Source: Terriglobia bacterium
Lineage (GTDB): Bacteria; Acidobacteriota; Vicinamibacteria; Vicinamibacterales; CAVVIG01
Assembly: GCA_020073005.1 (NCBI GenBank)
Contig: JAIQFX010000074.1
Coordinates: 1-39,174 of the forward strand
Direction: 5' to 3'
Length of the DNA stretch: 39,174 nt
The position numbers were made by a program, and so were the translations under genes. The notes beneath the pieces are model-generated. The model was given only the letters and a program-made list of their open reading frames with translations, searched no databases and had not been told where the DNA came from. Shown here piece by piece: positions 5,592-34,570 of this stretch (within the stretch, counting starts at the first letter, position 1; each line of letters starts with the position of its first letter).

Positions 5592-5645
5592 GAAGTGAGA
5601 CCAGCGAAGTTAGAAGTGCGAAGGCAGAAGGCAGAAGTGAAGAAG
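5592..5645 (+). repeat. heptad-period repeat, GAAG core
   Basis: The tetramer GAAG begins at 5592, 5606, 5613, 5620, 5627 and 5634, always in steps of seven; the slot at 5599 holds GACC. Units read like ttaGAAG, tgcGAAG, gcaGAAG. After 5637 the phase breaks (GAAG at 5639). The array lies between a TATCAT box and the start of the amidohydrolase, and the unit at 5627 supplies GAAGG as a possible ribosome binding site for the GTG at 5637. Confidence 0.75.
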
Positions 5646-7307
5646 AGTCTCATGATTCTCGGGATCGTGGTGGCCGCGGCCGCGGCGGCGATCGGCGCGG
5701 TGCAGCCGGCGCCGGCGCCCGAGACGATTCTCGTCAACGGACACATCATCACCGTCGACGCGAGATTCTCGATCGCGCAGGCCGTCGCGATTTCGCACGG
5801 ACGGTTCACGGCGGTCGGGTCGAACACCGATATCAGGAAGCTCGCCAGTCCGCAGACGACGACGATCGATCTCAAGGGGCAGACCGTGATCCCCGGTCTC
5901 GCCGACGATCACCTGCACGACGCCGGCGGCGGCCCCGGCGTCGACCTGTCCCGCGCGCGGTCGATCGCCGACGTGCTGGCGGCGATCGCGTCGTACGTCC
6001 GGCAGAGCAACCCCGGCAACGTGATCGTCAGCAACAGCGACTGGCACGAGGCGCAGCTCAAGGAACATCGCCTTCCGTATCGCCACGATCTCGACACGGT
6101 CTCGCCGGACAATCCGGTCGTCCTCGTTCGCGGCGGTCACGAGTACATCCTGAACTCGGCGGCCCTGAAGAAGTGGAACATCACGAAGGACACGCCGCAG
6201 CCGCCGGGCGGCCGCATCACGCGCGACGCCGGCGGCGAGCTGAACGGCGAGCTGATCGATCGGGCGAAGTCGCTCGTGCAGCTGCCGCCAGGCCCGAGGC
6301 TCACGATCGAAGAACTGGCGGCGCAGCATCGCAAGCTGAACGCGGCGGGCCTCACCAGCATCCGGTACCCGGGCGCGTCGGCCGAGCAGTTCCGGCTGCT
6401 CCAGGAGATGGAGCGCACGGGCAGGCTCACGATCCGCGTGAACCAGCTGCTGCGTTTTCCAGCCGCGGATGACGCCGCCAAAATGCGCGCGGCCGTCGCC
6501 GGCAGCGGCCTGAAGCAGGACGACGGCGATGAGTGGGTCCGCGTCGGCGGGATGAAGATGGCCGTCGACGGCGGGTTCGAAGGCGGCTGGATGCGCGAGC
6601 CGTACGTCGAGCCGTGGGGCGAGAAGGGGACGTTCCGCGGCGTCAACACGATGAAGCAGGCCGCGTACACCGACGTCGTCCGCGAGCTCAACCGGCTCGG
6701 CTGGCGCGTCGCGACGCACGCGGTCGGCGACGCCGCGATCGACGAAGTGCTCGAGGCCTACGAGGTGGCGAACGCCGACAAGTCGATCGTCGGCCGGCGG
6801 TGGTCGCTGGAGCACGGTTTCATCCCGCAGCCGGATCAATTTCCCCGCATGAGGAAGCTGGCGCTCGTCATCTCCGCGCAGGATCACCTCTACCTGGCCG
6901 GACCGAGCCTCGTGAACTATTGGGGGCCGGCGCGCGCCGGGCGCACGACGCCGATGCGCGAGTACCTCGATCAGGGATTCACGGTCGCCGGCGGCACCGA
7001 CTCCGCCGTCGTGCCGTATCCGCCGCTCTGGGTCTTCTATCACTTCGTGACGCGCGACACGATCAGCGGCGGCGTGATGGGCGCGGACCAGAAGATCAGC
7101 CGGAAGGAAGCCCTGCAGGTCCAGACGATCAACAACGCCTATCTCACGTTCGAGGAGAAAACGAAGGGATCAATCGAGCCGGGCAAGCTGGCCGACCTCG
7201 TGGTCCTGCCCGAAGACATTCTCACGTGTCCCGCCAAACACATCGAGCAGATGAACGTCGCGATGACGATGGTCGGAGGAAAGATCGTTTACCGGCACGG
7301 TTCGTAA
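5637..7307 (+). CDS. YtcJ-like metal-dependent amidohydrolase, exported
   Basis: 556-residue enzyme of the Amidohydro_3 / YtcJ (exoenzyme regulatory protein AepA-like) family, hydrolases with uncertain substrates. The N-terminus from the GTG at 5637 reads VKKSLMILGIVVAAAAAAIG, a good signal peptide; GAAGG lies five bases upstream. ATG at 5652 is the alternative. The mature part opens with ETILVNGHIITVD and AVAISHGRFTAVG (beta-sandwich), then LKGQTVIPGLADDHLHDAG (first metal His pair, near residue 85), MKMAVDGGFEGGWM, TRLGW-type stretch ATHAVGDAAIDEVL, LEHGFIPQPDQF, and GGTDSAVVPYPPLW (catalytic Asp). The C-terminus LTFEEKTKGSIEPGKLADLVVLP closes the sandwich. All expected motifs are present. 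It stands alone with a 99-base gap before the next gene. Confidence 0.87.
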   Translation: MKKSLMILGIVVAAAAAAIGAVQPAPAPETILVNGHIITVDARFSIAQAVAISHGRFTAVGSNTDIRKLASPQTTTIDLKGQTVIPGLADDHLHDAGGGPGVDLSRARSIADVLAAIASYVRQSNPGNVIVSNSDWHEAQLKEHRLPYRHDLDTVSPDNPVVLVRGGHEYILNSAALKKWNITKDTPQPPGGRITRDAGGELNGELIDRAKSLVQLPPGPRLTIEELAAQHRKLNAAGLTSIRYPGASAEQFRLLQEMERTGRLTIRVNQLLRFPAADDAAKMRAAVAGSGLKQDDGDEWVRVGGMKMAVDGGFEGGWMREPYVEPWGEKGTFRGVNTMKQAAYTDVVRELNRLGWRVATHAVGDAAIDEVLEAYEVANADKSIVGRRWSLEHGFIPQPDQFPRMRKLALVISAQDHLYLAGPSLVNYWGPARAGRTTPMREYLDQGFTVAGGTDSAVVPYPPLWVFYHFVTRDTISGGVMGADQKISRKEALQVQTINNAYLTFEEKTKGSIEPGKLADLVVLPEDILTCPAKHIEQMNVAMTMVGGKIVYRHGS

Positions 7308-7407
7308 GAGCTTACGCTTCGAGTAACGCCCGCCCGCGGCTTCGTTCGCCGCATCAACACTTTACAGTCCATTCAGTTTGGCCCCGACCTTGCTCATGGA
7401 GGTGCCC

Positions 7408-8280
7408 GTGACTCGACGCTATCTCTCTCTCGTTCTCATTACTTCGTTCGCACTACTCCTCACGACGACGCCCGCGCGCGCGCAGACGTCGTCAGACCCG
7501 GCGGCTTCGCCGACCAACGCCGTGCAGACGCCGTCAGCGCAAGCCGATGACGACGATGCCAAGCTGCGTCCCATTGAACCGGACTTCAACGTCATCAATC
7601 TCCCGACCACGCTCCCGCTGCCGGAGCACGCCGGGGATTTCCACCTGATGCACCGCTTCGCCGGCAATCTGCGGCAGGGAAGCTTCGGCGACAACCTCGG
7701 GAATCTGTTCGGCATCGACCAGGGCGCCACGATGAGCTTCGAGTACCGCTTCGGCGTGATGAAGCATCTCGAAGCGATCGCGGCGCGCACCAACTTCGAC
7801 AAGAACGTCCAGTTCTCGACGAAGTACGACGCCTTTCATCAGGACGCCACGCATCCCGTCGGGCTGTCGGCGATTCTGTCGGTCGAAGGCGGCAACAACT
7901 TCCGCCGCGATTACGCGCCAGCGATCGGCGCGTCGATCTCGCGGACCTACCAGGACAAGATCGCGGTCTACGCCGATCCGTTCTGGGTCCACAACAGCGC
8001 AGCCGCGACCGGCGTCGACGAGAACACCGGGTTCGTGGGCCTCGGCGCGCGCACACGGATCGTCAAGGACACGTTCTTCGTGTTCGAAGTGACGCCGCGG
8101 CTCGGCGGCTACACGCCGGCCGACGCCGAGTTCGCGTTCTCGGTGGAGAAGCGCGTCGGCGGCCACGTGTTTTCGCTGGTGTTCGGCAACTCGCCGGACT
8201 CGACCTATGGCCAGCTCGCGCGGGGCGGCTTCCCGCAGAGTCTGTTCCTGGGCTTCAACCTCGCACGCAAGTTCTTTTAA
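7408..8280 (+). CDS. DUF5777 family outer-membrane beta-barrel protein
   Basis: 290-residue protein with a signal peptide (VTRRYLSLVLITSFALLL... to ARAQ) and a body that matches the DUF5777 pattern: FHLMHRFAGNLRQGSFGDNLGNLFGIDQGA split in two motifs, a SFEYRFGV strand, alternating hydrophobic strands, and a C-terminal Phe (LARKFF) typical of proteins inserted by the BAM machinery. An acidic, proline-rich linker (ADDDDAKLRPIEPD) precedes the barrel. The GTG at 7408 has GGAGG five bases upstream; the ATG at 7396 overlaps that sequence and is less likely. Family members are often found beside CHRD/YceI-type secreted proteins, which fits the CHRD lipoprotein 28 bases downstream. Transport or structural role unknown. 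Confidence 0.8.
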   Translation: MTRRYLSLVLITSFALLLTTTPARAQTSSDPAASPTNAVQTPSAQADDDDAKLRPIEPDFNVINLPTTLPLPEHAGDFHLMHRFAGNLRQGSFGDNLGNLFGIDQGATMSFEYRFGVMKHLEAIAARTNFDKNVQFSTKYDAFHQDATHPVGLSAILSVEGGNNFRRDYAPAIGASISRTYQDKIAVYADPFWVHNSAAATGVDENTGFVGLGARTRIVKDTFFVFEVTPRLGGYTPADAEFAFSVEKRVGGHVFSLVFGNSPDSTYGQLARGGFPQSLFLGFNLARKFF

Positions 8281-8308
8281 CCCGACACAACGAAGGAGAA
8301 TGGATCTG

Positions 8309-8830: not shown

Positions 8831-8844
8831 CCTCAGTACATAAG

Positions 8845-8876
8845 AAGGGCGGGCCGCTGGGCCCGCCCTTTTTTTT
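8845..8876 (+). terminator. intrinsic terminator after the CHRD gene
   Basis: An 11-bp perfect stem, AAGGGCGGGCC (8845-8855) and GGCCCGCCCTT (8860-8870), with a four-base loop and a run of eight T (8869-8876). It starts 14 bases after the CHRD stop codon. The strongest terminator in the window. Confidence 0.92.
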
Positions 8877-8878
8877 CT

Positions 8879-8899: not shown

Positions 8900-8915
8900 C
8901 TACACCCGAATCAAA

Positions 8916-9689
8916 TTACCAGCGTCGCATGTCGCCCCGGTACGGAATCACCTGACCGGGCTCCACGGTCACGTCCATCGTCATCGTCTCGTAGCCGGTC
9001 GCCTGGATCTCGATGTGATGTAGGCCGGCCGCGAGCGTCAGCGGCTGATCCGCTCCATCGAACTCACGGACCGTTCCCGCATACGAGCCGTCGACGTAGA
9101 CCAGCGCGTCGCTCGGCGAAATCTCCAGGCTGACACCGCCATACATCGTCGACTCCGGGCCCACGACGATGGGCGCCCGTGGCGCGTAGTAGCCGTAAAC
9201 GGGGACCGGATAGGCGTACGCGTACGGCACCGGATAGCCGAGCCAGATGCCGAAGTTCAGGTGCAGCCGCGGCCGGAACACGTACGGCCGGTAGATCGGA
9301 TAGCCGTAGGCGTGCGGCGCGAACCGCGGCTCGTAGTGCGGCCGGTAATCCCGCGGCCGTTCAAAGCGCGGCGAGACGATCACCGGGCGTTCGACGCGCG
9401 GCGCCACGACGACCGGACGGTCGACGCGCGGGCGGGTGACCTCACTACGAGGCACGGCGCGCGGCACGGAGACCTGCGGTCGCGTTTCGGGGCGCGACTC
9501 GGTGCGCGGGCTGTTGTCGCCATGCGGGCGCGCGCGCTCGACGGCGCGACCCTGGTTCTCGGCGCGATCCGAATGGCTGCGCTCGCCGCCGCGGGCGCCG
9601 CGGTCACGCTGACCGGCGAACGCCGGCGTCGATGCGACCGCGATCGCGAGGACGACCGCCGCCGGAGTGAAGATCGTGTGGAGCTTCAT
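8916..9689 (-). CDS. exported PEGA-domain protein with Arg/Pro-rich and Tyr-rich segments
   Basis: 257-residue exported protein. The signal peptide is MKLHTIFTPAAVVLAIAVAS ending AFAG. Residues about 25-125 are very rich in Arg, Pro, Glu and Val with short repeats such as VERPVIVSPRFERP; residues about 125-180 are rich in Tyr and Pro (PYAYAYPVPVYGYYAPRAP). The C-terminal 75 residues form one PEGA domain: VSLEISPSDALVYVDGSYAG, TLAAGLHHIEIQATGYET. Similar disordered-plus-PEGA proteins are common in Acidobacteriota and probably sit in the envelope. The ATG at 9689 follows an AGGGGG ribosome binding site. The gene is divergent from the S9 peptidase across a 179-base gap that holds operator-like repeats. 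Confidence 0.8.
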   Translation of the reverse strand: MKLHTIFTPAAVVLAIAVASTPAFAGQRDRGARGGERSHSDRAENQGRAVERARPHGDNSPRTESRPETRPQVSVPRAVPRSEVTRPRVDRPVVVAPRVERPVIVSPRFERPRDYRPHYEPRFAPHAYGYPIYRPYVFRPRLHLNFGIWLGYPVPYAYAYPVPVYGYYAPRAPIVVGPESTMYGGVSLEISPSDALVYVDGSYAGTVREFDGADQPLTLAAGLHHIEIQATGYETMTMDVTVEPGQVIPYRGDMRRW

Positions 9690-19140: not shown

Positions 19141-19198
19141 GGAGGGACCTTACCACGGAAAGTTGTCATAGTCCGATGTCGGTCGCTGAGATTAGGGG

Positions 19199-19247
19199 CG
19201 AGAGGCCGGCGACTGGAGGCTAGAGAGCGACGACTGCAGCCGCCCAG
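19199..19247. repeat. degenerate heptad-period sequence at the end of the Rieske gene
   Basis: Units gcgagag, gccggcg, actggag, gctagag, agcgacg, actgcag keep A/C-G at their ends every seven bases. It is weaker than the other arrays and overlaps the last codons and the stop (19220-19222) of the Rieske gene. Confidence 0.4.
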
Positions 19248-19702
19248 CCCGCAGAGTTCTTGTCCGACTGATAGAACTTGTCCAGCTCGACGACGAGCGT
19301 GTCGCCGTCGCGACGGACGCCGAGCCGATCCATATTGCGCGTAGCGCGGCCGCTCGTGTAGACGCCGACGGGCGTGTACTGCGAATCGTGCTTCGTGCAC
19401 TGGAAGCGGCCATCCTTCGGCAGCCATTTCAGGACGTTGTTCTCGTGCGGGCACGCCAGGTTGAAGGCGTAGAGATGCGACTGGTAGCGCACGATGATCA
19501 CCTGCACCTTGCGATCGATCGTCACGCCGTCTGACGGCGGAATCGGATAGCGCACTTCGTTGCCGCTCTGTTGGCCGTCACCCTCGGTGATGGGCAGGGC
19601 AGCGGTGTCCGCGGCATTGAGCCCGAGCGCCGCGGCGCTCAGCGTGAAGCACGCCGCCACCTGCAGAAACGTCCGCCGTTCGCAAGGCATATCACGTTTC
19701 AT
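19220..19702 (-). CDS. Tat-exported Rieske [2Fe-2S] protein
   Basis: 160-residue protein. The N-terminus has a twin-arginine motif (CERRTFLQVAACF) and a hydrophobic stretch, which points to Tat export of a folded, cofactor-bearing protein. The Rieske signature is complete: Cys84-x-His86 (ACPHENN), 15 residues, then Cys102-x2-His105 (QCTKHDSQ), followed by GVYTSGRATRNMDRLGVRRD. The cluster is a one-electron carrier at high potential. The ATG at 19702 overlaps the upstream stop (ATGA), so it is translated together with the membrane protein gene before it. Neighbours suggest that it takes electrons from, or gives them to, the four-helix membrane proteins. There is no cytochrome b of the classical bc1 type in the window. 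Confidence 0.85.
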   Translation of the reverse strand: MKRDMPCERRTFLQVAACFTLSAAALGLNAADTAALPITEGDGQQSGNEVRYPIPPSDGVTIDRKVQVIIVRYQSHLYAFNLACPHENNVLKWLPKDGRFQCTKHDSQYTPVGVYTSGRATRNMDRLGVRRDGDTLVVELDKFYQSDKNSAGWAAAVVAL

Positions 19703-22142: not shown

Positions 22143-22148
22143 GCGGAG

Positions 22149-22154
22149 AGTATA
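22149..22154 (-). promoter_or_regulatory. -10 element TATACT, leaderless start of the NHL gene
   Basis: On the minus strand TATACT ends six bases before the ATG at 22142. This spacing puts the transcription start on the start codon. The -35 region falls inside the 7-bp repeats. Confidence 0.5.
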
Positions 22155-22156
22155 GG

Positions 22157-22230
22157 CTGGTGGCTGGTGGCTGGTGACTGGAGAAAAGAAAAGGCTGGGA
22201 ACTGGCGGCACCAGCCACCAGTCCCCAGCC
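22157..22230. repeat. heptad-period repeats in inverted arrangement (CTGG and CCAG arms)
   Basis: CTGG starts at 22157, 22164, 22171 and 22178, again at 22195 and 22202; CCAG starts at 22211, 22218 and 22225. Within each block the step is exactly seven. The two arms are complementary: GGCTGGG-A-ACTGG (22193-22205) pairs with CCAGT-C-CCCAGCC (22218-22230) with one mismatch. The array fills most of the 103-base gap between a quinoprotein gene and the NHL gene. Confidence 0.8.
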
Positions 22231-22245
22231 ACCTGATCGAAGCGT

Positions 22246-24432
22246 CTACCGTCCGCCCGTCGTCGTCCGCACGGCGCTCGACGGCAGGCTGAACGCGATG
22301 TACTCGCCCGAGTAGTTGCCGCCGCTGACCGCCACGATGATGTACTGCTTGCCGTCGACCATGTACGTCATCGGCGATCCGCTCTGCGGCGCCGGCATCC
22401 ACACCGCGCCGACCTGATTGCCGTTCGACTTGTCGTACGCGCGCAGCATCGCCCCGCGCGGATGCTCTGGCGTCGTCGTCACGCTCGGATCGCCCGCGAC
22501 GACGAGCGTCTTGGTCACCACGACGCCGACGTTGCCGGACTGACCGGTCTTCGGCACGTTCACGCCGCGCAGCGCGGGGTGATTGCGCACGTTGTCCGGC
22601 GTGTCGCCGTGTGGTACCGACCACACGAGATCGCCGCGGTCGAGATTGATCGCCGCGATCACGCCGTACGGCGGTTTCACGATCGAGAGTCCCTGCACGG
22701 TCGCGCCGAAACCGCCGCCACCCGCGGGAGCCCCGCCACGTCCACCGGCCGCGCCTGCCGCTGCGGGCGGAGGCGTCGGAGGCGGCGGAGGCGCCGCGGG
22801 CCGGCGCGGCGCATCGGCGGCTTCGCCTTCACCACCACCCGTGATCGGACGGAACGTCTGGCCGGCCGTCCCCATCACGTAGTCGAGATCGGAGAAGTCC
22901 TTCGGCGGCGCGACGAGGCCGAGCGGCGAGATGCACGCGTTGCACGCGTGCGTGAAGAAGGTGTGGAGCTCCGGATCGTAAGCCGAGCCTGGCCAGTTCA
23001 CGCCGCCGCTGAGCGTCCCCGACGTCAGCGCGGCGATCGGGCCCTCCGCCTTGCTGACGAGCGGCGGCAGGAACACGGGGCCGAGGCGGTATCGCTTGGC
23101 GGCTTCGAGACCCTGCGCCTTGAGATCGGGCGTGAAGTCGATCAGATCCGATTCCAGCACACCGTTGCGCGAGTAGGCCGGCGGCTTGGTCGGGAACGGC
23201 TGGGTCGGGCTCGTCTTCTCGCCCGGCACGTCGGTCTGCGGAACCGGTTTCTCTTCGATCGGCCACACGGGCTGACCGGTCACGCGATCGAACACGTAGA
23301 GGATGCCCTGCTTGGTGGCCTGCGCGACGGCTTTGATCGGCTTGCCGTTGACCACGATGTCCGCGAGCAGAGGAGCCGCGGGGATGTCGTAGTCCCAGAT
23401 CGGGTGATGGACGATCTGATAGTGCCACTTGCGCTGGCCCGTCTTCAGATCGACGCAGACGAGGCTGTCGCCGAACAGATTATTGCCGGGACGATGGCCG
23501 CCGTAGAGATCCGACGTCGGATCTTCGACGGGCAGATAGACGAGGCCGAGTTCCTCGTCGACCGTGATCTGCGACCACACGCCCGTGTTGCCGTTGACGG
23601 CCCACGATTCCTTTTCCCAGGTGTCGTTGCCGAATTCACCCGGACGAGGAATCGTGTTGAACGTCCAGAGCAGCTTGCCGCTGCGGACGTCCCACGCGCG
23701 CACGAGGCCCTTCGTGTTGTTGTGGGTCTTGACGGTCAGGCCTTCGCGGAACGACGAGCCGACGATGACGACGTCCTTCGCGACGGTCGGCGTCGAGTGC
23801 AGGCCGATTTCGCCGGTCTCCAGATCGATCTGTTCGCCTTTGCCGACGACCGCGCCGACCTTCATGTCGATGACCCCGGCCTTGCCGAACGTGTTGATCG
23901 GCGTGCCGGTCTTCGCGTTGAGCTCGACGAGGCGGTAGCCGGTGGTCACGAAGATCACGCGCTCGTCGCCTTTGCCGTCCGTCCAGTACGAGAGACCGCG
24001 GCCGGAGAGCTGCCGCGGCGCGTTGACGGCGCGCGCGCCTTCCTTCTCGGCGTGGACCCAGATGAGCTCGCCGGTCTTGGCGTCGAGCGCGACGACGGAG
24101 CGGCGCGTGCCGCCCGTCGCGTAGATGACGCCCTTGACCATCAGCGGCGTCCCCTCGAGCTTGAACTCGGGCCGCGTGCCGAGATTGTCGGTCTTGAAGC
24201 GCCACGCGACTTCGAGCTGATTGAAGTTGCCCGCGTTGATCTGATCGAGCGGGGAGTAGCGCGAGCCTCTCACGTCGGCGGTGTAGTGCGTCCATTCGCC
24301 GTTCTTCGTGCTCGGTTGACCAGCCGCCTGGCCCGAGAGGCGTGCGGTGATGTGTGGCGCCACCGCCATCACACCGAGCGCGCCGGCCATCGAGAGCGCG
24401 GCCAGCGCCGTACGTCTGCCTGTACGTGTCAT
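22246..24432 (-). CDS. PQQ-type quinoprotein dehydrogenase, paralog 1
   Basis: 728-residue protein of the glucose-dehydrogenase-like PQQ family, eight-bladed propellers that oxidise sugars or alcohols with pyrroloquinoline quinone. A signal sequence or anchor (ALAALSMAGALGVMAV) is followed by WTHYTADVRGSRYSPLDQIN, VAWRFKTDNLGTRPEFKLEG, the repeated tryptophan-dock motifs (ALDAKTGELIWVH, AWDVRSGKLLWTF, CVDLKTGQRKWHY) and VHHPIWDYDIPAAPLL. There is no CxxCH heme site, so an external electron acceptor is needed. A Pro/Ala/Gly-rich insert of about 40 residues (near residue 545) interrupts the propeller. AAAGGG lies about eight bases before the ATG at 24432. It is the most divergent of three tandem copies. 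Confidence 0.88.
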   Translation of the reverse strand: MTRTGRRTALAALSMAGALGVMAVAPHITARLSGQAAGQPSTKNGEWTHYTADVRGSRYSPLDQINAGNFNQLEVAWRFKTDNLGTRPEFKLEGTPLMVKGVIYATGGTRRSVVALDAKTGELIWVHAEKEGARAVNAPRQLSGRGLSYWTDGKGDERVIFVTTGYRLVELNAKTGTPINTFGKAGVIDMKVGAVVGKGEQIDLETGEIGLHSTPTVAKDVVIVGSSFREGLTVKTHNNTKGLVRAWDVRSGKLLWTFNTIPRPGEFGNDTWEKESWAVNGNTGVWSQITVDEELGLVYLPVEDPTSDLYGGHRPGNNLFGDSLVCVDLKTGQRKWHYQIVHHPIWDYDIPAAPLLADIVVNGKPIKAVAQATKQGILYVFDRVTGQPVWPIEEKPVPQTDVPGEKTSPTQPFPTKPPAYSRNGVLESDLIDFTPDLKAQGLEAAKRYRLGPVFLPPLVSKAEGPIAALTSGTLSGGVNWPGSAYDPELHTFFTHACNACISPLGLVAPPKDFSDLDYVMGTAGQTFRPITGGGEGEAADAPRRPAAPPPPPTPPPAAAGAAGGRGGAPAGGGGFGATVQGLSIVKPPYGVIAAINLDRGDLVWSVPHGDTPDNVRNHPALRGVNVPKTGQSGNVGVVVTKTLVVAGDPSVTTTPEHPRGAMLRAYDKSNGNQVGAVWMPAPQSGSPMTYMVDGKQYIIVAVSGGNYSGEYIAFSLPSSAVRTTTGGR

Positions 24433-24453
24433 TCGTTTATCCCTTTGTCTTTT

Positions 24454-24495
24454 GAGCTCTCAGCTTTCAGTTTTCAGTTTTCAGTTTCTCTCATC
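24454..24495. repeat. heptad-period repeat, CAG(T/C)TTT units
   Basis: Consecutive seven-base units gagctct, cagcttt, cagtttt, cagtttt, cagtttc, tctcatc run from 24454 to 24495. They fill the 58-base gap between paralogs 2 and 1 of the quinoprotein array and run into the stop codon of paralog 2 (24491-24493). Confidence 0.75.
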
Positions 24496-26749
24496 TCTGT
24501 CCCGCCGTTGACGGGGTGCTCGCCGGCAGCGCAAACGAAATGTACTCGCCCGAGTAGACGCCGCCGCTGACGGCGACGACGATGTACTGGCGGCCGTCGG
24601 GCCCTTTGTACGTCATGGGCGAGCCGCTTTGCGCCGCCGGCATCCAGACCGCACCGACTTCGGCGCCGGTGTCCTTGTTGTACGCGCGCAGCATCGCGCC
24701 GCGCGGCCGTCCGGGCGGCGCCGTCACCTGCGGATCGCCGAGGACGACGAGCGTCTTCGTCACGAGCAGGCCGACGCTGCCGTTCTGTCCGGTCTTCGGG
24801 ATGGTCATCCCGGCGAGCGCCGGCGCGTTGCGCACGTTGTCCGGCGTGTCGCCGTGCGGGACCTGCCACTTGAGCTCGCCCTTGTCGAGATCGATCGCCG
24901 TGAGCACGCCGTACGGCGGCTTCACGATCGGCAGACCTTCGACCTGCAAACCACCACCGCCGCCGCCCGCGCCGCGACCAGCTGCGCCCGGCGCTCCCGG
25001 CGCGCCCGCGCCTCCGGCTGCCGCGCCAGCGCCCCGGCCGCCGCCGCGACCGCCGCGTCCGGCCGCGGCTGCTTCAGGCGGCGCGCCGCCGCCGGCGCGG
25101 CCGCCGCGCTGCGGTGCATCCGCCGCGCTCCCGAAGCCCGGACCCTCGGCGACGCGGAAGTCCGTTCCGCCGACGCCGGAGACGTACCGAATGTCCGAGA
25201 AGCCGGCGGGCGGTTCACGCAACGAGAGACCACTGACGAACGCCAACGCGGCTTGTGCGTACACCGTGTGCGTTTCCGGATCCGCGCCCGCGCCTGGCCA
25301 GTTCGTGCCGCCGCTCGCATTGCCGACGTTGATCGCGCCACGCATCGGACCATTCAGTTGACCGAGAAGCGGAGGATTGAACATGCCGGCAACGCGATAG
25401 CTCTTCAGATTCTCGAGCGCCTGCGCGCGCATCGCGGGCGTGAAGTCGATCAGATCGTCCGGCACCTTGAGATACGGCCGGCCGTAGGCCGGCGGCTTGG
25501 TCGGGAACGGCTGCGTCGGCGATGTCTTCTCGCCGGACACGTCCGACTGCTGCACCGGGCGCTCTTCGATCGGCCAAATCGGCTGGCCGGTGATGCGGTC
25601 GAACACATAGAGGAACGACTGCTTGCTCGGGACCGCGACGGCCTTGATCAGTTTGCCGTTCACGTTCGCGTCGAGCAGGATCGGCGCCGACGACATGTCG
25701 TAGTCCCAGATCGGGTGATGGACCATCTGGAAGTGCCACTTGCGCTGGCCCGTCTTGAGGTCCACGCAGACGATGCTGTCGCCGAACAGATTGTTGCCGG
25801 GGCGATGACCGCCGTAGTAGTCCGAGGTCGGATCTTCGACGGGCAGGTAGACGAGGCCGGCTTCTTCATCAACGGTGATCTGCGACCACACGCCCGTGTT
25901 GCCGTTGGTCGCCCACGATTCGTTCTCCCAGGTGTCGTTGCCGAACTCGCCCGGCCGGGGAATCGTGTTGAACGTCCAGAGCAGCTTGCCGGTCTTCACG
26001 TCGAACGCGCGAACCAGACCCTTGGTGTTGTTGTGCGTGACGACGGTCATGCCTTCTTTGAACGACGAGCCGACGAGCACGACGTCCTTGACGACCGTTG
26101 GCGTCGAGTGAATCCCGATCTCACCGGTCTCGAGGTCGATCTGCTGGCCCTTGCCGACGACCGCGCCCTTCTTGAGATCGACGACGCCGCCTTCGCCGAA
26201 CGACTGGATCATCGAGCCGTTCTTCGCGTTCAACTCGATGAGCCGATAGCCCGTTGTCATGTAGATGACGCGCTCGTCGTTGCGGCCGTCGGTCCAGTAG
26301 GCGACGCCGCGGCCGGAGAGCTGGCGCGGCGCGATCGCGGCGCGATTGCCTTCGCGATAGCTGTGCGACCAAATCAGTTCGCCGGTTCTGCCGTCGAGGG
26401 CGACGACGGAGCGGCGCGTGCCGGCCGTCGTGTAGAGCGTGCCGCGAATCGCCAGCGGCGTGCCCTCGAGTTTGAATTCGGGGCGCGTGCCGAGGTTGTC
26501 GGTCTTGAAGCGCCACGCGACTTCGAGTTGATTGAAGTTGCTCGCGTTGATCTGATCGAGCGGGGAGTACTTCGTGCCGCGCATGTCCGCCGTGTAGTGC
26601 GTCCAATCCCCGTTCTTCGTGCTTGGCTGCCCGACCGCCTGGCCGGCGAGCCGCGCCGTGAGGCCTCGCGGCCCGCCGACGATCAGCCCGACGAGCACGA
26701 CGAGCGAGAGACCTGCGAGAGCCGATCGCGTGAGTGTTCGCATCTTCAT
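24491..26749 (-). CDS. PQQ-type quinoprotein dehydrogenase, paralog 2
   Basis: 752-residue relative of the neighbouring quinoproteins with signal sequence MKMRTLTRSALAGLSLVVLV. Motifs: WTHYTADMRGTKYSPLDQIN, ALDGRTGELIWSHSY, AFDVKTGKLLWTF, CVDLKTGQRKWHFQ and VHHPIWDYDMSSAPILL. In the first 430 mature residues it differs from paralog 3 at only about a dozen positions. The Gly/Ala/Arg-rich insert is the longest of the three, about 65 residues (positions about 575-640), and is where the copies differ most. There is no heme c site. AGGA precedes the ATG at 26749, which lies 16 bases after the stop of paralog 3, so the two are one transcript. Confidence 0.88.
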   Translation of the reverse strand: MKMRTLTRSALAGLSLVVLVGLIVGGPRGLTARLAGQAVGQPSTKNGDWTHYTADMRGTKYSPLDQINASNFNQLEVAWRFKTDNLGTRPEFKLEGTPLAIRGTLYTTAGTRRSVVALDGRTGELIWSHSYREGNRAAIAPRQLSGRGVAYWTDGRNDERVIYMTTGYRLIELNAKNGSMIQSFGEGGVVDLKKGAVVGKGQQIDLETGEIGIHSTPTVVKDVVLVGSSFKEGMTVVTHNNTKGLVRAFDVKTGKLLWTFNTIPRPGEFGNDTWENESWATNGNTGVWSQITVDEEAGLVYLPVEDPTSDYYGGHRPGNNLFGDSIVCVDLKTGQRKWHFQMVHHPIWDYDMSSAPILLDANVNGKLIKAVAVPSKQSFLYVFDRITGQPIWPIEERPVQQSDVSGEKTSPTQPFPTKPPAYGRPYLKVPDDLIDFTPAMRAQALENLKSYRVAGMFNPPLLGQLNGPMRGAINVGNASGGTNWPGAGADPETHTVYAQAALAFVSGLSLREPPAGFSDIRYVSGVGGTDFRVAEGPGFGSAADAPQRGGRAGGGAPPEAAAAGRGGRGGGRGAGAAAGGAGAPGAPGAAGRGAGGGGGGLQVEGLPIVKPPYGVLTAIDLDKGELKWQVPHGDTPDNVRNAPALAGMTIPKTGQNGSVGLLVTKTLVVLGDPQVTAPPGRPRGAMLRAYNKDTGAEVGAVWMPAAQSGSPMTYKGPDGRQYIVVAVSGGVYSGEYISFALPASTPSTAGQR

Positions 26750-26765
26750 GAATGAGTCCTCGTTG

Positions 26766-28994
26766 CTAGTGACCACCGGTTGAACTGCCCGATCCCGCGG
26801 GCAAACTGAAGGCGATGTACTCGCCTGAGTAAACGCCACCGCTCACTGCCACCACGATGTATTGCCGGCCATCGGGTCCCTTGTAGGTCATGGGCGAGCC
26901 GCTCTGCGGGGCCGGCATCCAGACCGCACCGACTTCCGCGCCGGTGTCCTTGTTGTACGCGCGCAGCATCGCGCCGCGCGGCCGTCCGGGCGGCGCCGTG
27001 ACCGTCGGATCGCCGAGAATCACGAGTGTCTTGGTGACGAGCAGCCCGACGCTGCCGCCCTGACCTGTCTTCGGGATCGTCATCCCCGCGAGCGCCGGGT
27101 TGTTGCGCACGTTGTCCGGCGTGTCGCCGTGCGGCACCTGGAACTTCAGCTCGCCCTTGTCGAGATCGATCGCCGCGAGCACGCCATACGGCGGCTTCAC
27201 AATCGGCAGACCCTCGACCTGCAGACCGCCGCCACCGCCGCGACCAGCCGCCGCCGGCGCCGCAGCGCCCGCCACAGGAGCGCCGGCCGCGCCGCGTCCA
27301 CCTCGTCCGCCGCGACCGGCCGCGGCGGGTTCCGCTGCCGCTGCGCCCGCCCGGCCGCCGCGTTGTGGCGCATCCGCCGCGCTGCCGAAGCCCGGGCCTT
27401 CCGCGACGCGGAACTCGGTCCCGCTCGTGCCGGCGACGTACCGAATGTCGGAGAACCCTGCCGGCGGCTCGCGTACCGAGAGACCGCCGACGGCCGTCAT
27501 GCTGGCTTCGGCATAAACGATGTGCGTTTCGGGATCGGCGCCGGCGCCCGGCCAGTTCGTGCCGCCGCTCGCGTTGCCCGTATTGATGGCGCCGCGAATC
27601 CCGTTCGGATTGCCGACGACCGCGGGATTGAACATGCCGGCGACGCGATAGCTCTTCAGATTCTCGAGCGCCTGCGCGCGCATGGCCGGCGTGAAGTCGA
27701 TCAGATCGTCCGGCACCTTGAGATACGGCCGGCCGTAGGCCGGCGGCTTGGTCGGGAACGGCTGCGTGGGCGACGTCTTCTCGCCGGGCACGTCCGACTG
27801 CTGCACCGCGCGCTCTTCGATCGGCCAGATCGGTTGACCCGTGATGCGATCGAAGACGTAGAGGAACGACTGCTTGCTCGGGACCGCGACGGCCTTGATC
27901 AGTTTGCCGTTCACGTTCGCGTCGAGCAGGATCGGCGCCGACGAGGCGTCGTAATCCCAGATCGGGTGGTGCACCATCTGGAAGTGCCACTTGCGCTGAC
28001 CGGTCTTCAAATCCACGCAGACGATGCTGTCGCCGTAGAGATTGTTGCCGGGGCGATGCCCGCCGTAGTAGTCCGACGTCGGATCTTCCACGGGCAGGTA
28101 CACGAGGCCCGCGTCTTCATCAACCGTGATCTGCGACCACACGCCCGTATTGCCGTTGGTCGCCCATGATTCGTTCTCCCAGGTGTCGTTGCCGAATTCT
28201 CCCGGGCGCGGAATCGTGTTGAACGTCCAGAGCAGCTTGCCCGTGCGGACGTCGAACGCGCGCACGAGGCCCTTCGTGTTGTTGTGCGTGACGACGGTCA
28301 TGCCTTCTTTGAACGATGAGCCGACGAGCACGACGTCTTTCACGACCGTCGGCGTCGAGTGGAGACCGATTTCACCGACCTCGAGATCGATCTGCTGGCC
28401 CTTGCCGACGACCGCGCCCTTCTTGAGATCGACCACGCCGCCTTCGCCGAACGACTGCACCATCGAGCCGTTCTTGGCGTTGAGCGCGATGAGGCGATAG
28501 CCGGTGGTGACATACAGCACGCGCTCGTCGTTGCGGCCGTCGGTCCAGTACGCGACGCCGCGGCCGGAGAGCTGGCGCGGGGCAATCGCGGCGCGATTGC
28601 CTTCGCGATAGCTGTGCGACCAGATCAACTCGCCCGTCTTCCCATCAAGCGCGACGACGGAGCGGCGCGTCCCTGCCGTCGTGTAGAGTGTCCCGCGGAT
28701 GGCGAGCGGCGTCCCTTCGAGCTTGAATTCGGGGCGCGTGCCGAGATTGTCGGTCTTGAAGCGCCACGCGACTTCGAGTTGATTGAAGTTGCTCGCGTTG
28801 ATCTGATCGAGCGGGGAGTATTTCGTGCCGCGCATGTCCGCGGTGTAGTGGGTCCAGTCCCCGTTCTTCGTGCTTGGCTGCCCGACTGCCTGGCCCGCGA
28901 GGCGCGCGGTCACTCCCGGACCGGCGATGATCACGCCGGCAAGCAGAACAAGCGAGACGATCGCCACGGCGGCTCGACGGACGCTTCGTGTCAT
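26766..28994 (-). CDS. PQQ-type quinoprotein dehydrogenase, paralog 3 (first of the array)
   Basis: 742-residue quinoprotein, the promoter-proximal member of the array. The signal sequence is MTRSVRRAAVAIVSLVLLAGV. It shares with paralog 2 the propeller docking motifs (ALDGKTGELIWSHSY, AFDVRTGKLLWTF, CVDLKTGQRKWHFQ), VHHPIWDYDASSAPILL and the C-terminal GAVWMPAPQSGSPMTYKGPD. The Ala/Gly-rich insert here is about 55 residues. AGGAG lies six bases before the ATG at 28994, a better site than those of the other two, so this copy may be translated most. No genes for PQQ synthesis or for a cytochrome partner lie in the window. Confidence 0.88.
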   Translation of the reverse strand: MTRSVRRAAVAIVSLVLLAGVIIAGPGVTARLAGQAVGQPSTKNGDWTHYTADMRGTKYSPLDQINASNFNQLEVAWRFKTDNLGTRPEFKLEGTPLAIRGTLYTTAGTRRSVVALDGKTGELIWSHSYREGNRAAIAPRQLSGRGVAYWTDGRNDERVLYVTTGYRLIALNAKNGSMVQSFGEGGVVDLKKGAVVGKGQQIDLEVGEIGLHSTPTVVKDVVLVGSSFKEGMTVVTHNNTKGLVRAFDVRTGKLLWTFNTIPRPGEFGNDTWENESWATNGNTGVWSQITVDEDAGLVYLPVEDPTSDYYGGHRPGNNLYGDSIVCVDLKTGQRKWHFQMVHHPIWDYDASSAPILLDANVNGKLIKAVAVPSKQSFLYVFDRITGQPIWPIEERAVQQSDVPGEKTSPTQPFPTKPPAYGRPYLKVPDDLIDFTPAMRAQALENLKSYRVAGMFNPAVVGNPNGIRGAINTGNASGGTNWPGAGADPETHIVYAEASMTAVGGLSVREPPAGFSDIRYVAGTSGTEFRVAEGPGFGSAADAPQRGGRAGAAAAEPAAAGRGGRGGRGAAGAPVAGAAAPAAAGRGGGGGLQVEGLPIVKPPYGVLAAIDLDKGELKFQVPHGDTPDNVRNNPALAGMTIPKTGQGGSVGLLVTKTLVILGDPTVTAPPGRPRGAMLRAYNKDTGAEVGAVWMPAPQSGSPMTYKGPDGRQYIVVAVSGGVYSGEYIAFSLPAGSGSSTGGH

Positions 28995-31290: not shown

Positions 31291-31370
31291 GGACGGTGGC
31301 GCCCACATGATCCATCGAAATGCATACGCTTGCACTATTTGCCGGGTGTCCGGGCCGTGAGCGATCCGCT

Positions 31371-31376
31371 ATGATG
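31371..31376 (+). promoter_or_regulatory. candidate -10 element (TATGAT) of the beta-lactamase-like gene
   Basis: CGCTATGATG lies 26 bases before the ATG at 31403. The leader holds a short hairpin from GCCGG and CCGGC (within 31384-31398). Confidence 0.4.
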
Positions 31377-31402
31377 AAGGTTGCCGGTCTTGCCGGCGGT
31401 TC

Positions 31403-32464
31403 ATGCGCAGATCCCTGCTCGCCCTGACGGCCGCCATCCTGCTGATCGTCGCCCGTGTGCCGCTGCACGCGGATCTGCTCGTCTACGGGCTGTTCGGCGA
31501 CTACGTGGATGCGCTCCGGGCGCAGGCCGGCATTCCCGGGCTGACGGCGACCATCGTCGGCGCCGACGACATCATCTGGGAGCATCCGGTCGGGCTGCAG
31601 AACATCGAGCGGAACGTCGTCGCGCGCGCCGACACGCCGTACCAGGTCGACGGCCTCACGCAGGTGTTCATGACGACCGTCGTTCTCGCATGCGTCGAGA
31701 ACGGGTCCGTCACGCTGGACGATCCGCTGAGCAAGTTCAATCCGGGCAATCCCGATGCCGGCGCGACGATCAGGCAGATCCTGACGCACACGTCGGGACC
31801 CGCCGGCAACCTGGTCTTCGCGTATCGCCCTGACCGATTCAACTCGCTGGTCGACGTCATCAGCGTCTGCACGAATGGATCGTTCCGCGCGACGCTCGCG
31901 GCCGGCCTCAATCGCGTCGCGATGTTCGATTCTGTGCCTGGACTCGACGCCGTCGGATTGATTCCGCCCGCCGACGGCATTTCGAATCAAACGATCGAGC
32001 GGTACGCCAGCGCGCTGCAGCGTCTGGCGACGCCGTACGCGGTCGACGCCCAGAAACGCGCGACGCTCTCGCAGTACAAGACGACGACGTTGACCGGCGG
32101 GAGCGGGCTGATCACCACCGCGCGCGATTACGCGAAGTTCGATCTGGCGCTCCGCACGCCGCCTTACCTGCTGAGGCCCGAAACGCTTGCGGCGGCATGG
32201 CGACCGCCGGTCGGCGCCGGCGGCCTGCTGCTGCCGCACGGGATGGGCTGGTTCGTTCAGCTGTACAACGGCGTGCCCGTGATCTGGCAGTTCGGCGTCA
32301 GCGACAACGCTTCATCGTCGCTCGTGGTCACCGTGCCCAGCCGGCAGCTGACGCTGATTCTGATGGCCAACAGTGATGGTCTCGTGAAGTCGCTTCCACT
32401 GGCGGCGGGCGACGTCACCGTGTCGCCGTTTGCGAAGGTGTTCCTTGGAACCTTCGTGGGTTAG
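31403..32464 (+). CDS. beta-lactamase/penicillin-binding-like protein without catalytic SxxK (pseudoenzyme)
   Basis: 353-residue exported protein with the fold of class C beta-lactamase-related serine hydrolases. The signal peptide is RRSLLALTAAILLIVA. Family landmarks are kept: GIPGLTATIVG, CVENGSVTLDDPLSKF, IRQILTHTSGPAGNL, GSGLITTARDYAKFDLAL and GMGWFVQ. The nucleophile motif SxxK should lie in TPYQVDGLTQVF, but Gly84 stands for Ser and Gln87 for Lys; a YxN motif is not visible (FDS), and the third motif reads WQFGVSD instead of HxG/KTG. It should thus not hydrolyse lactams or peptides and may bind a ligand. The next gene, an outer membrane barrel, starts 17 bases downstream, so the two are probably one transcript. 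Confidence 0.8.
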   Translation: MRRSLLALTAAILLIVARVPLHADLLVYGLFGDYVDALRAQAGIPGLTATIVGADDIIWEHPVGLQNIERNVVARADTPYQVDGLTQVFMTTVVLACVENGSVTLDDPLSKFNPGNPDAGATIRQILTHTSGPAGNLVFAYRPDRFNSLVDVISVCTNGSFRATLAAGLNRVAMFDSVPGLDAVGLIPPADGISNQTIERYASALQRLATPYAVDAQKRATLSQYKTTTLTGGSGLITTARDYAKFDLALRTPPYLLRPETLAAAWRPPVGAGGLLLPHGMGWFVQLYNGVPVIWQFGVSDNASSSLVVTVPSRQLTLILMANSDGLVKSLPLAAGDVTVSPFAKVFLGTFVG

Positions 32465-32481
32465 GAGAAGCACGATTCGCC

Positions 32482-33063
32482 ATGCGAGTCGGATTGCTCG
32501 TCATCGCCCTGCTGCTGATGCCGTCGGCGCGGGCGTCCGCCGAGTGGCAGATCAAGCCGTTTGTCGGGACGATCTTCGCCGGCACGTCGACGTTCACGGG
32601 CGACCTCGAGCAGGCGGCGGGCGAACGGCATGTCACGGCCGGGGTCAGCGGACTGTTTCTCGGGGAAGTGATTGGCGTGGAAGGCGACTTCGGACATGTG
32701 CCCCGCGTGTTTCAGTCGACGGGTCAGCTCGTCCTGAGCAGCAGCGCGACCACGGTGACCGGCAACATCGTCGTGGCCTTGCCGCGGCGCTGGACCGAAT
32801 ACACGCTGCGCCCGTACTTCGTGGGCGGCGGCGGCGTGATGAACGCGCAGCTCGACGACAAGTTTCACCTGTTCACGGTGTCGAGTTCCATGGGCGCCTG
32901 GGATCTGGGCGCCGGCGTGACCGGTTTTCTGTCGGATCGTTTCGGGGTCAGCTGGGACGTCCGGTACTTTCGCAGCGTCGGCGGCAGAGACGAAGGGCTG
33001 AGCCTCGGGCCCGAGCAGCTCTCGTTCTGGCGCGCGAATATGGCCTTGGCGATTCGCTATTGA
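32482..33063 (+). CDS. outer-membrane beta-barrel protein
   Basis: 193-residue exported protein with signal peptide MRVGLLVIALLLMPSARASA and alternating amphipathic strands: WQIKPFVGTIFAG, HVTAGVSGLFLGEVIGVEGD, YTLRPYFVGGGGVM, WDLGAGVTGFLSDRFGVSWD and the terminal FWRANMALAIRY ending in an aromatic residue, the BAM recognition pattern. It resembles the small OmpA/OmpW-like porin class with about eight strands. AGGAG lies 14 bases before the ATG, longer than usual. It follows the beta-lactamase-like gene in the same direction, and the DUF4390 gene comes next. Confidence 0.75.
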   Translation: MRVGLLVIALLLMPSARASAEWQIKPFVGTIFAGTSTFTGDLEQAAGERHVTAGVSGLFLGEVIGVEGDFGHVPRVFQSTGQLVLSSSATTVTGNIVVALPRRWTEYTLRPYFVGGGGVMNAQLDDKFHLFTVSSSMGAWDLGAGVTGFLSDRFGVSWDVRYFRSVGGRDEGLSLGPEQLSFWRANMALAIRY

Positions 33064-33084
33064 TGTACTAGGATGGAGCGGTCA

Positions 33085-33618
33085 ATGAAGCGTCGGCTTG
33101 GGACCTGGTGCGCGGTGGCTTTCGTTGCGGCGGGCGTCATCGTTCGCGCCGCCGAGGTCGTGCGCATCCTGCCGATCGTGCGCGACGATCAGGTCGTTGT
33201 CTCCTGCGAGCTCGCCGATGCCTACACCGACGACGTCCGCGACGCGATCTCGAGCGGGCTCCGCACGACGTTCACCTACGATCTCGAGCTGCGCATGGTC
33301 GTGCCGGCCTGGGTCGATCGGACGATTGCCACGTCGGTCGTCAGCACCAGCGATCAGTACGACAACCTCACGCGACGCCACAGTCTCACGCGCATCGTCA
33401 ACGGCCGCGTCGACGAGGCGACCGTCACTGAAGACGAAGCCGTCGTCCGGCAGTTTCTGACGTCGCTGACGCGCGTGCCGCTCAGCCGCACGTCGAAGCT
33501 GATTAGCAACCGCGACTACTACGTCCGCATCAGCGCGCGCGCGCGTCCCCGCGGATCGTCTGTGTTCAGCTTCGCCGATGCCATCACGGGCTCGGCCAAG
33601 TTCACCTTCATCCCGTAA
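33085..33618 (+). CDS. DUF4390 family exported protein
   Basis: 177-residue protein with signal peptide MKRRLGTWCAVAFVAAGVIVRA and a single DUF4390 domain: LPIVRDDQVVVSCELADAYT, VRDAISSGLRTTFTYDLELR, HSLTRIVNGRVDEATVTEDE, and LISNRDYYVRISARARPRG. The family is of unknown function and is usually found beside nitrogen-regulation kinases, which are absent here. The ATG at 33085 has GGAG six bases upstream; ATG at 33073 adds four residues and overlaps it. Length and motif order are complete. Confidence 0.82.
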   Translation: MKRRLGTWCAVAFVAAGVIVRAAEVVRILPIVRDDQVVVSCELADAYTDDVRDAISSGLRTTFTYDLELRMVVPAWVDRTIATSVVSTSDQYDNLTRRHSLTRIVNGRVDEATVTEDEAVVRQFLTSLTRVPLSRTSKLISNRDYYVRISARARPRGSSVFSFADAITGSAKFTFIP

Positions 33619-33636
33619 GGTCGTTCGCGAGGGGAG

Positions 33637-33722
33637 TGCCGGAGGAGGGAATCGAACCCTCACGGGGAGTGAACCCCACGGGATTTTGAGTCCCGCGCGT
33701 CTGCCAGTTTCACCACTCCGGC
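33637..33722 (-). tRNA. tRNA-Leu (anticodon CAA)
   Basis: Read on the minus strand, GCCGGAG pairs with CTCCGGC (acceptor). The anticodon arm is CGGGA-CTCAAAA-TCCCG, which gives CAA and reads UUG codons. The long variable arm (TGGGGTTCACTCCCCG) is the class II form typical of Leu, and the T arm is GAGGG-TTCGATT-CCCTC. The 3' CCA is not encoded. A TATACT -10 (33744-33749) lies about 21 bases upstream of the 5' end. Confidence 0.95.
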
Positions 33723-33743
33723 CCTGGAGGGTGCAAGCCTCAC

Positions 33744-33749
33744 AGTATA
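33744..33749 (-). promoter_or_regulatory. -10 element (TATACT) of the tRNA-Leu gene
   Basis: On the minus strand AACGCTATACTGTGAGG precedes the tRNA. Transcription would start around 33737, about 15 bases before the mature 5' end. No -35 consensus is seen in the GC-rich flank. Confidence 0.5.
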
Positions 33750-33883
33750 GCGTTTGGCTTCGTCACGCCGCCCCCACCGCGACCCGCTTGGGTACGCAAC
33801 CTCGGCGGTGAGAGGTACTTAAGGTCGTACCGTGATGCATGGGCGAAAATACGCGAAACCCCTGATTTTCTGGCCATTTATCG

Positions 33884-33912
33884 TTGATCGGGCGCGCGTA
33901 CTCGGGTATACT
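33884..33912 (+). promoter_or_regulatory. sigma-70-type promoter of the carD-like gene
   Basis: TTGATC (33884-33889), a 17-base spacer, then TATACT (33907-33912). This is the best -35/-10 pair in the window. It gives a leader of about 50 bases before the GTG at 33970. The rest of the 350-base stretch from 33619 to 33969 holds the tRNA and AT-richer DNA without further genes. Confidence 0.7.
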
Positions 33913-33969
33913 GATCAGACTGCTAAAGCGACTTCGGCCTTCCATATAGCGCTCCTAACAGGGGGAACT

Positions 33970-34545
33970 GTGACGTTTCAGGTTGGCGACAAGGTCATTT
34001 ACCCGAATCATGGTCTCGGGATCGTGGAACGGATCGAAGACAAGACAATCCTCGGCACGACGTGCGGCTTCTATCATCTCCGCATCGTCGCCAACGACAC
34101 GACCGTGCTCGTGCCGCTGGCGAACGTGGACGGCGTCGGCCTCCGGCGCGCCATCAGCGACGAAGAGGTCGATCGGCTCTTCGGCCTGCTCGGCGACGGC
34201 AAGATCGACAACCACCAGAACTGGAAGGGCCGCTTCAAGGACAACTCGGACAAGATGCGCAGCGGCTCGATCTACGAAGTCGCCGACGTCCTGAAGAGCC
34301 TGACGTTCCTGGCGAAGTCCAAGAGCCTCTCGTTCCGCGAGAAGCGGATGCTCGACCGGGCCAAGTTCCTCATCATCTCGGAAGTGTCCGAGGTCATGCG
34401 TGAGACGGCCGCGGCCATCGAAGGCCGGGTCGACGGCGCGCTCGAGCGCTGCTTCAGCGCGAAGGCCAGGACGACGGCCCGCGCGAAAGTCGCGAAGGCG
34501 GTGGCGCCGGCAACCGCGCCGCGCCGTGCCGCCCGCGCGTCGTAG
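33970..34545 (+). CDS. CarD-family transcription factor
   Basis: 191-residue protein. Residues about 1-65 are the RNA-polymerase-interacting domain: MTFQVGDKVIYPNHGLGIVE, CGFYHLRIVANDTTVLVPLA. Residues about 70-155 are the helical DNA-binding part (RRAISDEEVDRLFGLLGDGK, SGSIYEVADVLKSLTFLAKS, LSFREKRMLDRAKFLIISEV). CarD stabilises the promoter open complex and controls rRNA and many other genes. A basic, Ala-rich tail (ARTTARAKVAKAVAPATAPR) may add DNA contact and resembles histone-like tails. The GTG at 33970 has AGGGGG upstream; upstream in-frame ATGs lie before the promoter and are not used. It ends in a terminator at 34579. Confidence 0.9.
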   Translation: MTFQVGDKVIYPNHGLGIVERIEDKTILGTTCGFYHLRIVANDTTVLVPLANVDGVGLRRAISDEEVDRLFGLLGDGKIDNHQNWKGRFKDNSDKMRSGSIYEVADVLKSLTFLAKSKSLSFREKRMLDRAKFLIISEVSEVMRETAAAIEGRVDGALERCFSAKARTTARAKVAKAVAPATAPRRAARAS

Positions 34546-34570
34546 CACCTCGCACTTTCGCACCTCGCAC
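34545..34570. repeat. heptad-period repeat, CGCAC core
   Basis: GCAC begins at 34545, 34552, 34560 and 34567, steps of 7, 8 and 7. The units cgcacct and cgcactt alternate. The reverse complement reads AGTGCGAGGTGCGAA, the same family as the GAAGTGCGAAG units at 5592. It starts on the stop codon of the carD-like gene. Confidence 0.65.

Follow-up and report, generated by a model that had tools for sequence, protein, structure and literature searches.

Degenerate short-period repeat arrays at gene junctions of a Vicinamibacterales genome, with changing cores at orthologous sites

The window analyzed here is the whole of contig JAIQFX010000074.1, a stretch of 39,174 nucleotides from the draft genome of a Terriglobia bacterium (order Vicinamibacterales, assembly GCA_020073005.1). 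Short gaps between its genes contain tandem arrays in which a core of a few bases returns every 7 bp. A sequence-only reading had proposed five such arrays. We read all five places directly in the sequence and examined them with Tandem Repeats Finder and a lag-7 test. Three are strong period-7 arrays (5592-5645, 22154-22233, and 24442-24499, the last with CAGTTTT/CAGCTCT units), and the second of these is an inverted pair in which CTGGTGG units, a spacer, and CACCAGC units follow one another (Table 1). The 22154 and 24442 arrays lie between same-strand genes, and the 5592 array lies in a divergent gap. The fourth place, 34545-34570, holds 3.6 copies with 80% matches and 10% indels according to Tandem Repeats Finder; an extra base breaks the array, which falls below the lag-7 threshold, including a looser one. 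The fifth place, 19199-19247, gives no significant lag-7 signal, and lag 21 alone is raised. Because the orthologous gap of the congener G001 contains a GGGCTGA array, we nevertheless treat it as an array site. Thus, three of the proposed arrays are strong, one is broken and subthreshold, and one is not significant by itself. The gene calls around the arrays agree with their proposed location in short gaps at gene ends or starts. The suggested kinship between the 34545 and 5592 arrays is not supported, since in our reading of the sequence the first has a GTGC-type core and the second a GAAG-type core.

Table 1. Repeat arrays and array sites in the window
Feature	Position	Strand	Context
GAAGNNN array	5592-5645	+	Within divergent gap 5557-5651 and 5′ of an amidohydrolase gene; G001 also has a GAAG-type array there
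Weak or decayed array site	19186-19254	.	Lag 7 not significant
Inverted pair, left arm, CTGGTGG units, G-rich strand +	22154-22192	+	Gap 22143-22245
Inverted pair, right arm, CACCAGC units, G-rich strand -	22209-22233	-	Gap 22143-22245
CTGAAAA/CTGAGAG array, G-rich strand -	24442-24499	-	At the stop codon of a PQQ-dehydrogenase-like gene; between same-strand genes
Short GTGC-type (GCACCTC) array with an indel	34545-34573	-	Directly 3′ of the stop of a CarD-like gene

These places belong to a genome-wide class. Its members have units of 7 bp or, in fewer cases, of 8 or 9 bp, occur alone or as inverted pairs, and appear to come, go, and be exchanged at gene junctions. The genome is a 5.86-Mb draft in 179 contigs, from which we sampled 932,802 bp with 382 intergenic gaps of at least 35 bp, using genes from a home-made caller. 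The sampled contigs were picked among those with a GAAG match, so densities may be slightly high. Lag-7 arrays occurred in 86 of the 382 gaps, against a mean of 0.0 in five dinucleotide shuffles, which is the excess that the sequence-only reading had asked a genome scan to find. In the same scan, lag 8 gave 11 gaps and lag 9 gave 8, lags 2–6, 10–13, 15–20, and 22–24 gave 0–4, and lags 14 and 21 were echoes of 7. Over all sequence (439 kb), where coding periodicity raises lags of 3n, lag 7 leads at high stringency, with 26 windows of 35 having at least 27 matches and 0 in shuffles. Array density per kilobase is ∼39 times higher between genes than inside them (543 kb); with the same gene caller, 13 of 141 arrays in 933 kb lie well inside called genes and 128 do not. 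If the sampled contigs are typical, the whole genome would hold roughly 900 arrays. The single pattern (GAAGNNN)3GAAG has 43 forward and 51 reverse matches in the whole genome, with overlapping matches within one array counted apart.

As had been noticed in the window, a core is kept at period 7 while the other positions vary, and different arrays use different cores. In this genome and G001 together, 111 arrays use 38 perfect-dimer heptamer classes of the ∼1,170 possible, and the two commonest classes account for 14 and 11 arrays. About a dozen cores recur, and most of these have no run of three G. The main ones, as written on the G-rich strand, are GAAG, GAAAA, CTGG, GTCG, GTGC, AGCTG, GAATT, AGTC, GTTC, GGCTG, and GATT (157 sites, 10 unassigned); the dominant cores include GAAG, GAAAA, CTGG, and GTCG rather than a single GGGA-type, quadruplex-capable unit. 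The core mix is specific to each genome, and the variable letters differ by genome as well. For example, (GTCGNNN)4GTCG has 171 matches in this genome, 7 in G001, 37 in G002, 397 in G014, and 0 in G046, while the GAAG pattern has 94, 56, 84, 1, and 176, respectively; these are overlapping matches, not scaled to genome size or completeness, and the GTCG counts come from reversed-pattern control columns. Within arrays, unit similarity falls from 5.48 of 7 positions between neighbors to 3.94 at a separation of 5, and in 26 of 87 arrays the order of units differs from permuted orders at p < 0.05, which together indicate that unit duplication goes on inside arrays. With variable units and cores common to several loci, the arrays differ from classical contingency simple sequence repeats, which have identical units and one local seed.

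The arrays were also compared between species. We covered G001 for 240 kb and found orthologues for 147 genes and 79 adjacent gene pairs; flanking sequence assigned 23 of 64 array sites to a gap of G001. Among the 79 adjacent pairs, arrays are present in both genomes in 9 gaps, in one genome in 15, and in neither in 55 (odds ratio 9.9, p = 4e-4). When cores were searched with greater sensitivity and the two longest gaps were excluded (77 gaps), these counts became 10, 14, and 53. By eye, the core is the same in 5 of the 10 gaps with arrays in both genomes and different in the other 5; random pairs share a core in 15% of cases. At 24442, CAGTTTT units correspond to CTTCTAA units in G001 (a GAAGTTA-type array), and further swaps include GTCGTT to GTGC, GTGC to CTGG, and an 8-bp array opposite a 7-bp one. 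One of the five, CAGCCAT/CAGCCCT to CAGCCAC, is a close case. Where one genome has an array, the corresponding genes of the other may overlap or almost abut; for example, G001 has a pair of arrays between its L21 and L27 ribosomal genes, a gap of 11 bp in this genome. The turnover that the sequence-only reading had named as support is therefore seen between species, with arrays present in one genome only or built on another core at orthologous gaps.

Two junctions beside a transaldolase gene, J1 and J2, were traced through 30 matched genomes. J1 was resolved in 28 of them. Six carry clear period-7 arrays with cores ranging from CTGG to GACTG, one (G038) has a weak lag-7 call that we read as a 9-bp array, 2 have other long sequence, 6 have inserts of 52–77 nt without arrays, and 13 have at most 37 nt. 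J2, resolved in 21 genomes, has period-7 arrays in 3, a similar 9-bp inverted pair in another 3, other sequence of 60–254 nt in 9, and <50 nt in 6. Some arrays are common to different genera, namely ATGGCTG in G012 and G022 at J1 and the 9-bp pair in G002, G019, and G022 at J2. Persistence thus occurs too, and the direction of change is unreadable from presence alone. At J1 of G001, and at C61:13720-13784 of the same genome, another hairpin-like repeat (GGGCGGAGC...GCTCCGCCC with GGGCCGACC...GGCGGCCC) stands beside arrays or in their place; it looks like a separate repeat family.

The arrays also have preferred positions and orientations. They occupy 3 of 77 divergent gaps, 67 of 252 co-directional gaps, and 20 of 53 convergent gaps. 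Arrays in co-directional gaps sit a median of 1 bp from the upstream stop and 14 bp from the following start. The G-rich strand leads from the nearest gene edge into the gap, by 34:1 in convergent gaps (this genome and G001). Co-directional gaps with at least 30 free base pairs have the same polarity, 30:6 at stops and 18:4 at starts; in tight gaps it is weaker at stops (19:8). A general excess of G over C at gap edges was considered as the cause and ruled out, because edges without arrays have no such skew (G 0.317 and C 0.319 after 153 stops; 0.307 and 0.308 from 229 starts). An inverted partner lies within 150 bp in the G-arm-first order for 52 of 165 oriented arrays and in the reverse order for 4, and single arrays that have no partner retain the polarity (35:8). 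Folding is strong in some of these gaps: convergent gaps with arrays have a median folding z of −3.5 relative to shuffles, versus −0.15 for convergent gaps without arrays. Overall, z is below −2 in 29 of 68 array gaps (10 of 14 convergent, 19 of 54 co-directional), and many single arrays therefore form no hairpin.

Contacts between arrays and stop codons bear on how the arrays are joined to genes. At 100 such contacts the stop triplet recurs in phase with the units at +7, with 1.42 of 3 letters matching, compared with 0.57–0.82 at +5, +6, +8, and +9; the G-rich strand is sense in 73 contacts and antisense in 18. Taken with the comparison of C-termini given below, this indicates that arrays attach at or within the last codons and seldom remove much of the gene. 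We also considered the arrays as “stop cassettes.” All three frames are closed within 40 nt at array ends in 30% of 79 cases versus 5% of 366, and the G-rich consensus unit holds a stop triplet in only 71 of 165 arrays, so this property is at most a side effect.

Several explanations can be set against these observations. Ordinary simple sequence repeats would arise by slippage from a chance local heptamer and then decay by point mutation, with a polymerase that favors seven. The greater likeness of neighboring units fits this account, and PMC4692102, in the portion drawn on here, cites both a heptameric over-representation in bacteria and a polymerase-footprint idea. However, chance seeds should give about as many cores as arrays, yet cores are widely shared; they differ at orthologous gaps; slippage alone yields no strand polarity; and MutS is present in this genome. 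Because of the shared cores, the replacement, and the polarity, slippage from a local seed is insufficient alone. The sequence-only reading had likewise doubted simple strand slippage, on the ground that it would give identical units; slippage of one seed per site does leave the same cores at scattered sites unexplained. We consider simple repeats unlikely as the full explanation. Selected RNA hairpins, in which paired arrays act as terminators or shields of mRNA 3′ ends and the fold is kept while the sequence is free, also strike us as an unlikely account, although they would explain a good deal: the folding of convergent array gaps, the G-arm-first order of pairs, the avoidance of divergent gaps, and replacement in place, which a constraint on the fold only would allow. 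Yet 39 of the 68 array gaps do not reach z < −2, and single arrays are polar without a partner. Moreover, a terminator should do harm between L21 and L27 in G001 if the two genes form one operon there, and the 34545 gap already appears to have a terminator-like hairpin of its own.

Arrays of binding sites for one or more regulators or nucleoid proteins have been proposed for the paired octa- and heptanucleotide repeats of Geobacter metallireducens. Tandem units with a kept core do resemble multisite operators, and comparable paired repeats appear as predicted global regulator sites in the relevant passages of PMC2700814. Here, however, about a dozen unrelated cores coexist in one genome, other cores stand at orthologous gaps, and the gaps that are avoided are the divergent, promoter-bearing ones, so that binding sites are an improbable reading. 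Mobile elements moved by a transposase, akin to miniature inverted-repeat transposable elements or REPINs, appear very improbable. The insert-like presence and absence at gene junctions would suit them, and this genome has 4 matches to Y1_Tnp. However, Y1_Tnp is unmatched in the array-rich drafts G013 (97% complete) and G014 (96% complete), spacers, arms, and ends differ between the pairs compared by eye, the spacers and ends also between pairs of one core, and no target duplication was seen by eye, without a systematic test. Of the roles that the sequence-only reading had entertained (a seven-base recognition module, an RNA-level role, and a replication-linked process), the field is narrowed but not reduced to one. 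As terminators, the arrays would account for no more than ∼40% of sites. A single regulator that recognizes a single word is improbable, given that orthologous sites can carry different words. Copying or replication is tentatively favored.

The explanation that we tentatively prefer, at close to an even chance, is that the arrays are copied from the genomic repeat pool, extended by slippage of units, and turned over at gene junctions. New arrays would be copied from existing ones by microhomology-primed template switching or repair synthesis, with ordinary repair or replication enzymes doing the copying. An inverted pair would result when a nascent strand folded back and served as its own template, and the units would later duplicate and diverge by slippage. 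Placement would follow from a filter: arrays would survive where they are harmless, mainly right behind stop codons rather than in gaps that hold promoters. Such a scheme would need no sequence-specific function. Some inverted pairs match unit for unit (e.g., C106:48670, C83:50939, and C11:34569), as fold-back copying predicts. That the G-rich strand leads from the gene edge may reflect polarized synthesis, which is a guess on our part.

Several results weigh against copying from a pool. We infer both the copying step and its polarity. Many pairs have a common core but not common units, and the partner arm has a mean rank of only 0.38 among same-core arrays, for pairs that were themselves chosen by similarity. 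The polarity is missing near starts where the gap is tight (9:10), and divergent gaps do not have it either (3:4). The C-termini of 24 array-adjacent genes, compared with 115 others, have no significant extra divergence from their orthologues (p = 0.41 and 0.17), which gives no support to wholesale resection into genes. Families are not clustered along the genome: the same family occurs in 4 of 64 site pairs under 3 kb apart versus 6.5 expected (P = 0.20). An apparent local avoidance of the same core, with 4 of 81 array pairs under 3 kb sharing one (expected fraction 0.118), vanished when counted per site with more data. In addition, the similar 9-bp pair in three genomes at J2 suggests an old element that was lost here and replaced in G001, although the direction is unpolarized. 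Finally, our searches found no array-forming enzyme.

Those searches removed several candidates. Synthesis by a reverse transcriptase or telomerase-like enzyme was rejected because RVT_1 has no match at E ≤ 1e-10 in this genome, G001 (91% complete), or G002 (85% complete), and a first look gave no candidate there; across 59 relatives, RVT_1 is not associated with arrays (p = 0.17). MutS occurs in 56 of 60 genomes, among them the present one, which excludes its loss as the cause. A dependence on Ku was dismissed as well, since the array-rich genomes G023, G025, G036, and G046 lack Ku and array density in 43 Ku-positive relatives is not significantly different from that in 16 Ku-negative ones (p = 0.105). 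Genome size correlates better with array density (rho 0.55).

A more specific route, polarized 3′-end synthesis without a reverse transcriptase, we hold to be distinctly unlikely but worth stating. At a break or stalled end within a junction, a polymerase would lengthen the G-rich strand away from the gene edge, adding 7 to 9 bases at a time with existing arrays as templates, either at both ends or by snap-back. If so, facing arrays would be telomere-like scars, and junctions would be rewritten while genes stay intact. The enzyme would then set the step size, and the genome the repeat vocabulary.

It is useful to contrast these arrays with repeats already described, as bacterial heptameric repeats have long been known. 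The STRR heptanucleotide repeats of Calothrix reportedly include three different tandem heptanucleotides in one genome. The sequence-only reading could name no element with such properties, but the intergenic heptameric GGGAATC and GGGGA(C/T)T repeats of Xanthomonas and Nostoc fit, as far as the relevant parts of PMC4692102 describe them. These are 89–93% intergenic, have partly variable units, form convergent inverted pairs, are few between divergent genes, and lie near the end of the upstream gene, with the G-rich strand on the coding strand downstream or on the noncoding strand upstream. They vary strongly in length and sequence between species, and that study, in its closing part, offers no function or mechanism. 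Our arrays are like them in period, variable units, mostly intergenic location, convergent pairs, scarcity between divergent genes, nearness to the end of the upstream gene, orientation, and variation between species. They are unlike them in that the Xanthomonas and Nostoc repeats, as described there, are of one G-rich, quadruplex-capable unit type, whereas about a dozen cores, periods of 8 and 9, and replacement of whole cores are found here. The strand geometry is the same although most of our cores have no run of three G, so it cannot have its common cause in quadruplex formation. The TAACTGA repeats of Beggiatoaceae, cyanobacteria, and Bacteroidetes (PMC4679880, in the sections used here) likewise comprise many intergenic heptamer direct repeats in one genome. 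They are built from one fixed heptamer, with near variants rarely repeated, lie mostly just upstream of starts, and include one indirect repeat in the draft genome; by comparison, ours have many degenerate cores, center on stops, and often form inverted pairs. Closer in variety are the tandem hepta- and octanucleotide elements of Geobacter metallireducens, read in the pertinent passages of PMC2700814 as regulator sites or regulatory RNAs. They share with our arrays the unit lengths, several classes per genome, and opposite-strand pairs at variable distance, but those passages describe no replacement at orthologous gaps. Repeats with units of six to nine base pairs are enriched in prokaryotic phyla according to the portion of PMC12699852 drawn on here.

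Thus, the heptamer geometry was already known from Xanthomonas and Nostoc, and what the present analysis adds is the presence of many cores per genome and their replacement in place. Among titles and opening lines of abstracts in the open-access literature we recognized no account of arrays with many cores in one genome or of cores being replaced between orthologous gaps, and a search of that literature for heptamer or tandem repeats in Acidobacteria or Vicinamibacter found nothing relevant. Replacement at orthologous junctions provides a handle on the birth and death of arrays, and a repeat vocabulary specific to each genome allows the proposed copying to be put to the test. Should the arrays be scars, they would record sites where bacterial genomes broke and were rejoined; if they are selected hairpins, they would be a case of a fold kept while its sequence is swapped.

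Similar repeats extend beyond this genome and its congeners. An abundant 8-bp family, CACGAAAN, occurs in the relative G019 (L128–L130, e.g., L128:2907-2998), also as facing pairs, with 8 arrays in 43 kb. GAAG period-7 arrays occur in many other phyla: a scan found at least 118 stretches, and by record title the 80 loci listed include cyanobacteria, Bacteroidetes, Gammaproteobacteria, Planctomycetes, and Chloroflexi, irrespective of intergenic or genic position. Viral contigs (L251–L330) have GAAG period-7 arrays too, in at least 120 stretches.

Other features of the window can be noted briefly. Three adjoining same-strand genes occupy 22246-28967 (−). The first two are PQQ-dehydrogenase-like by Pfam, and the 24442 array lies between them. 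The third region matches the first at ∼75% in the comparison with the congener, so the three are, judged from sequence, probably tandem paralogues. Just beyond the 34545 array, a GC-rich inverted repeat followed by TTTT at 34581-34612 reads as a terminator-like hairpin. A tRNA-Leu(CAA) gene lies at 33636-33722 (−), and an Rfam scan of the window matched tRNA alone. Finally, a 30-bp tandem repeat of 2.6 copies occurs at 9354-9431, inside a called gene on the minus strand.

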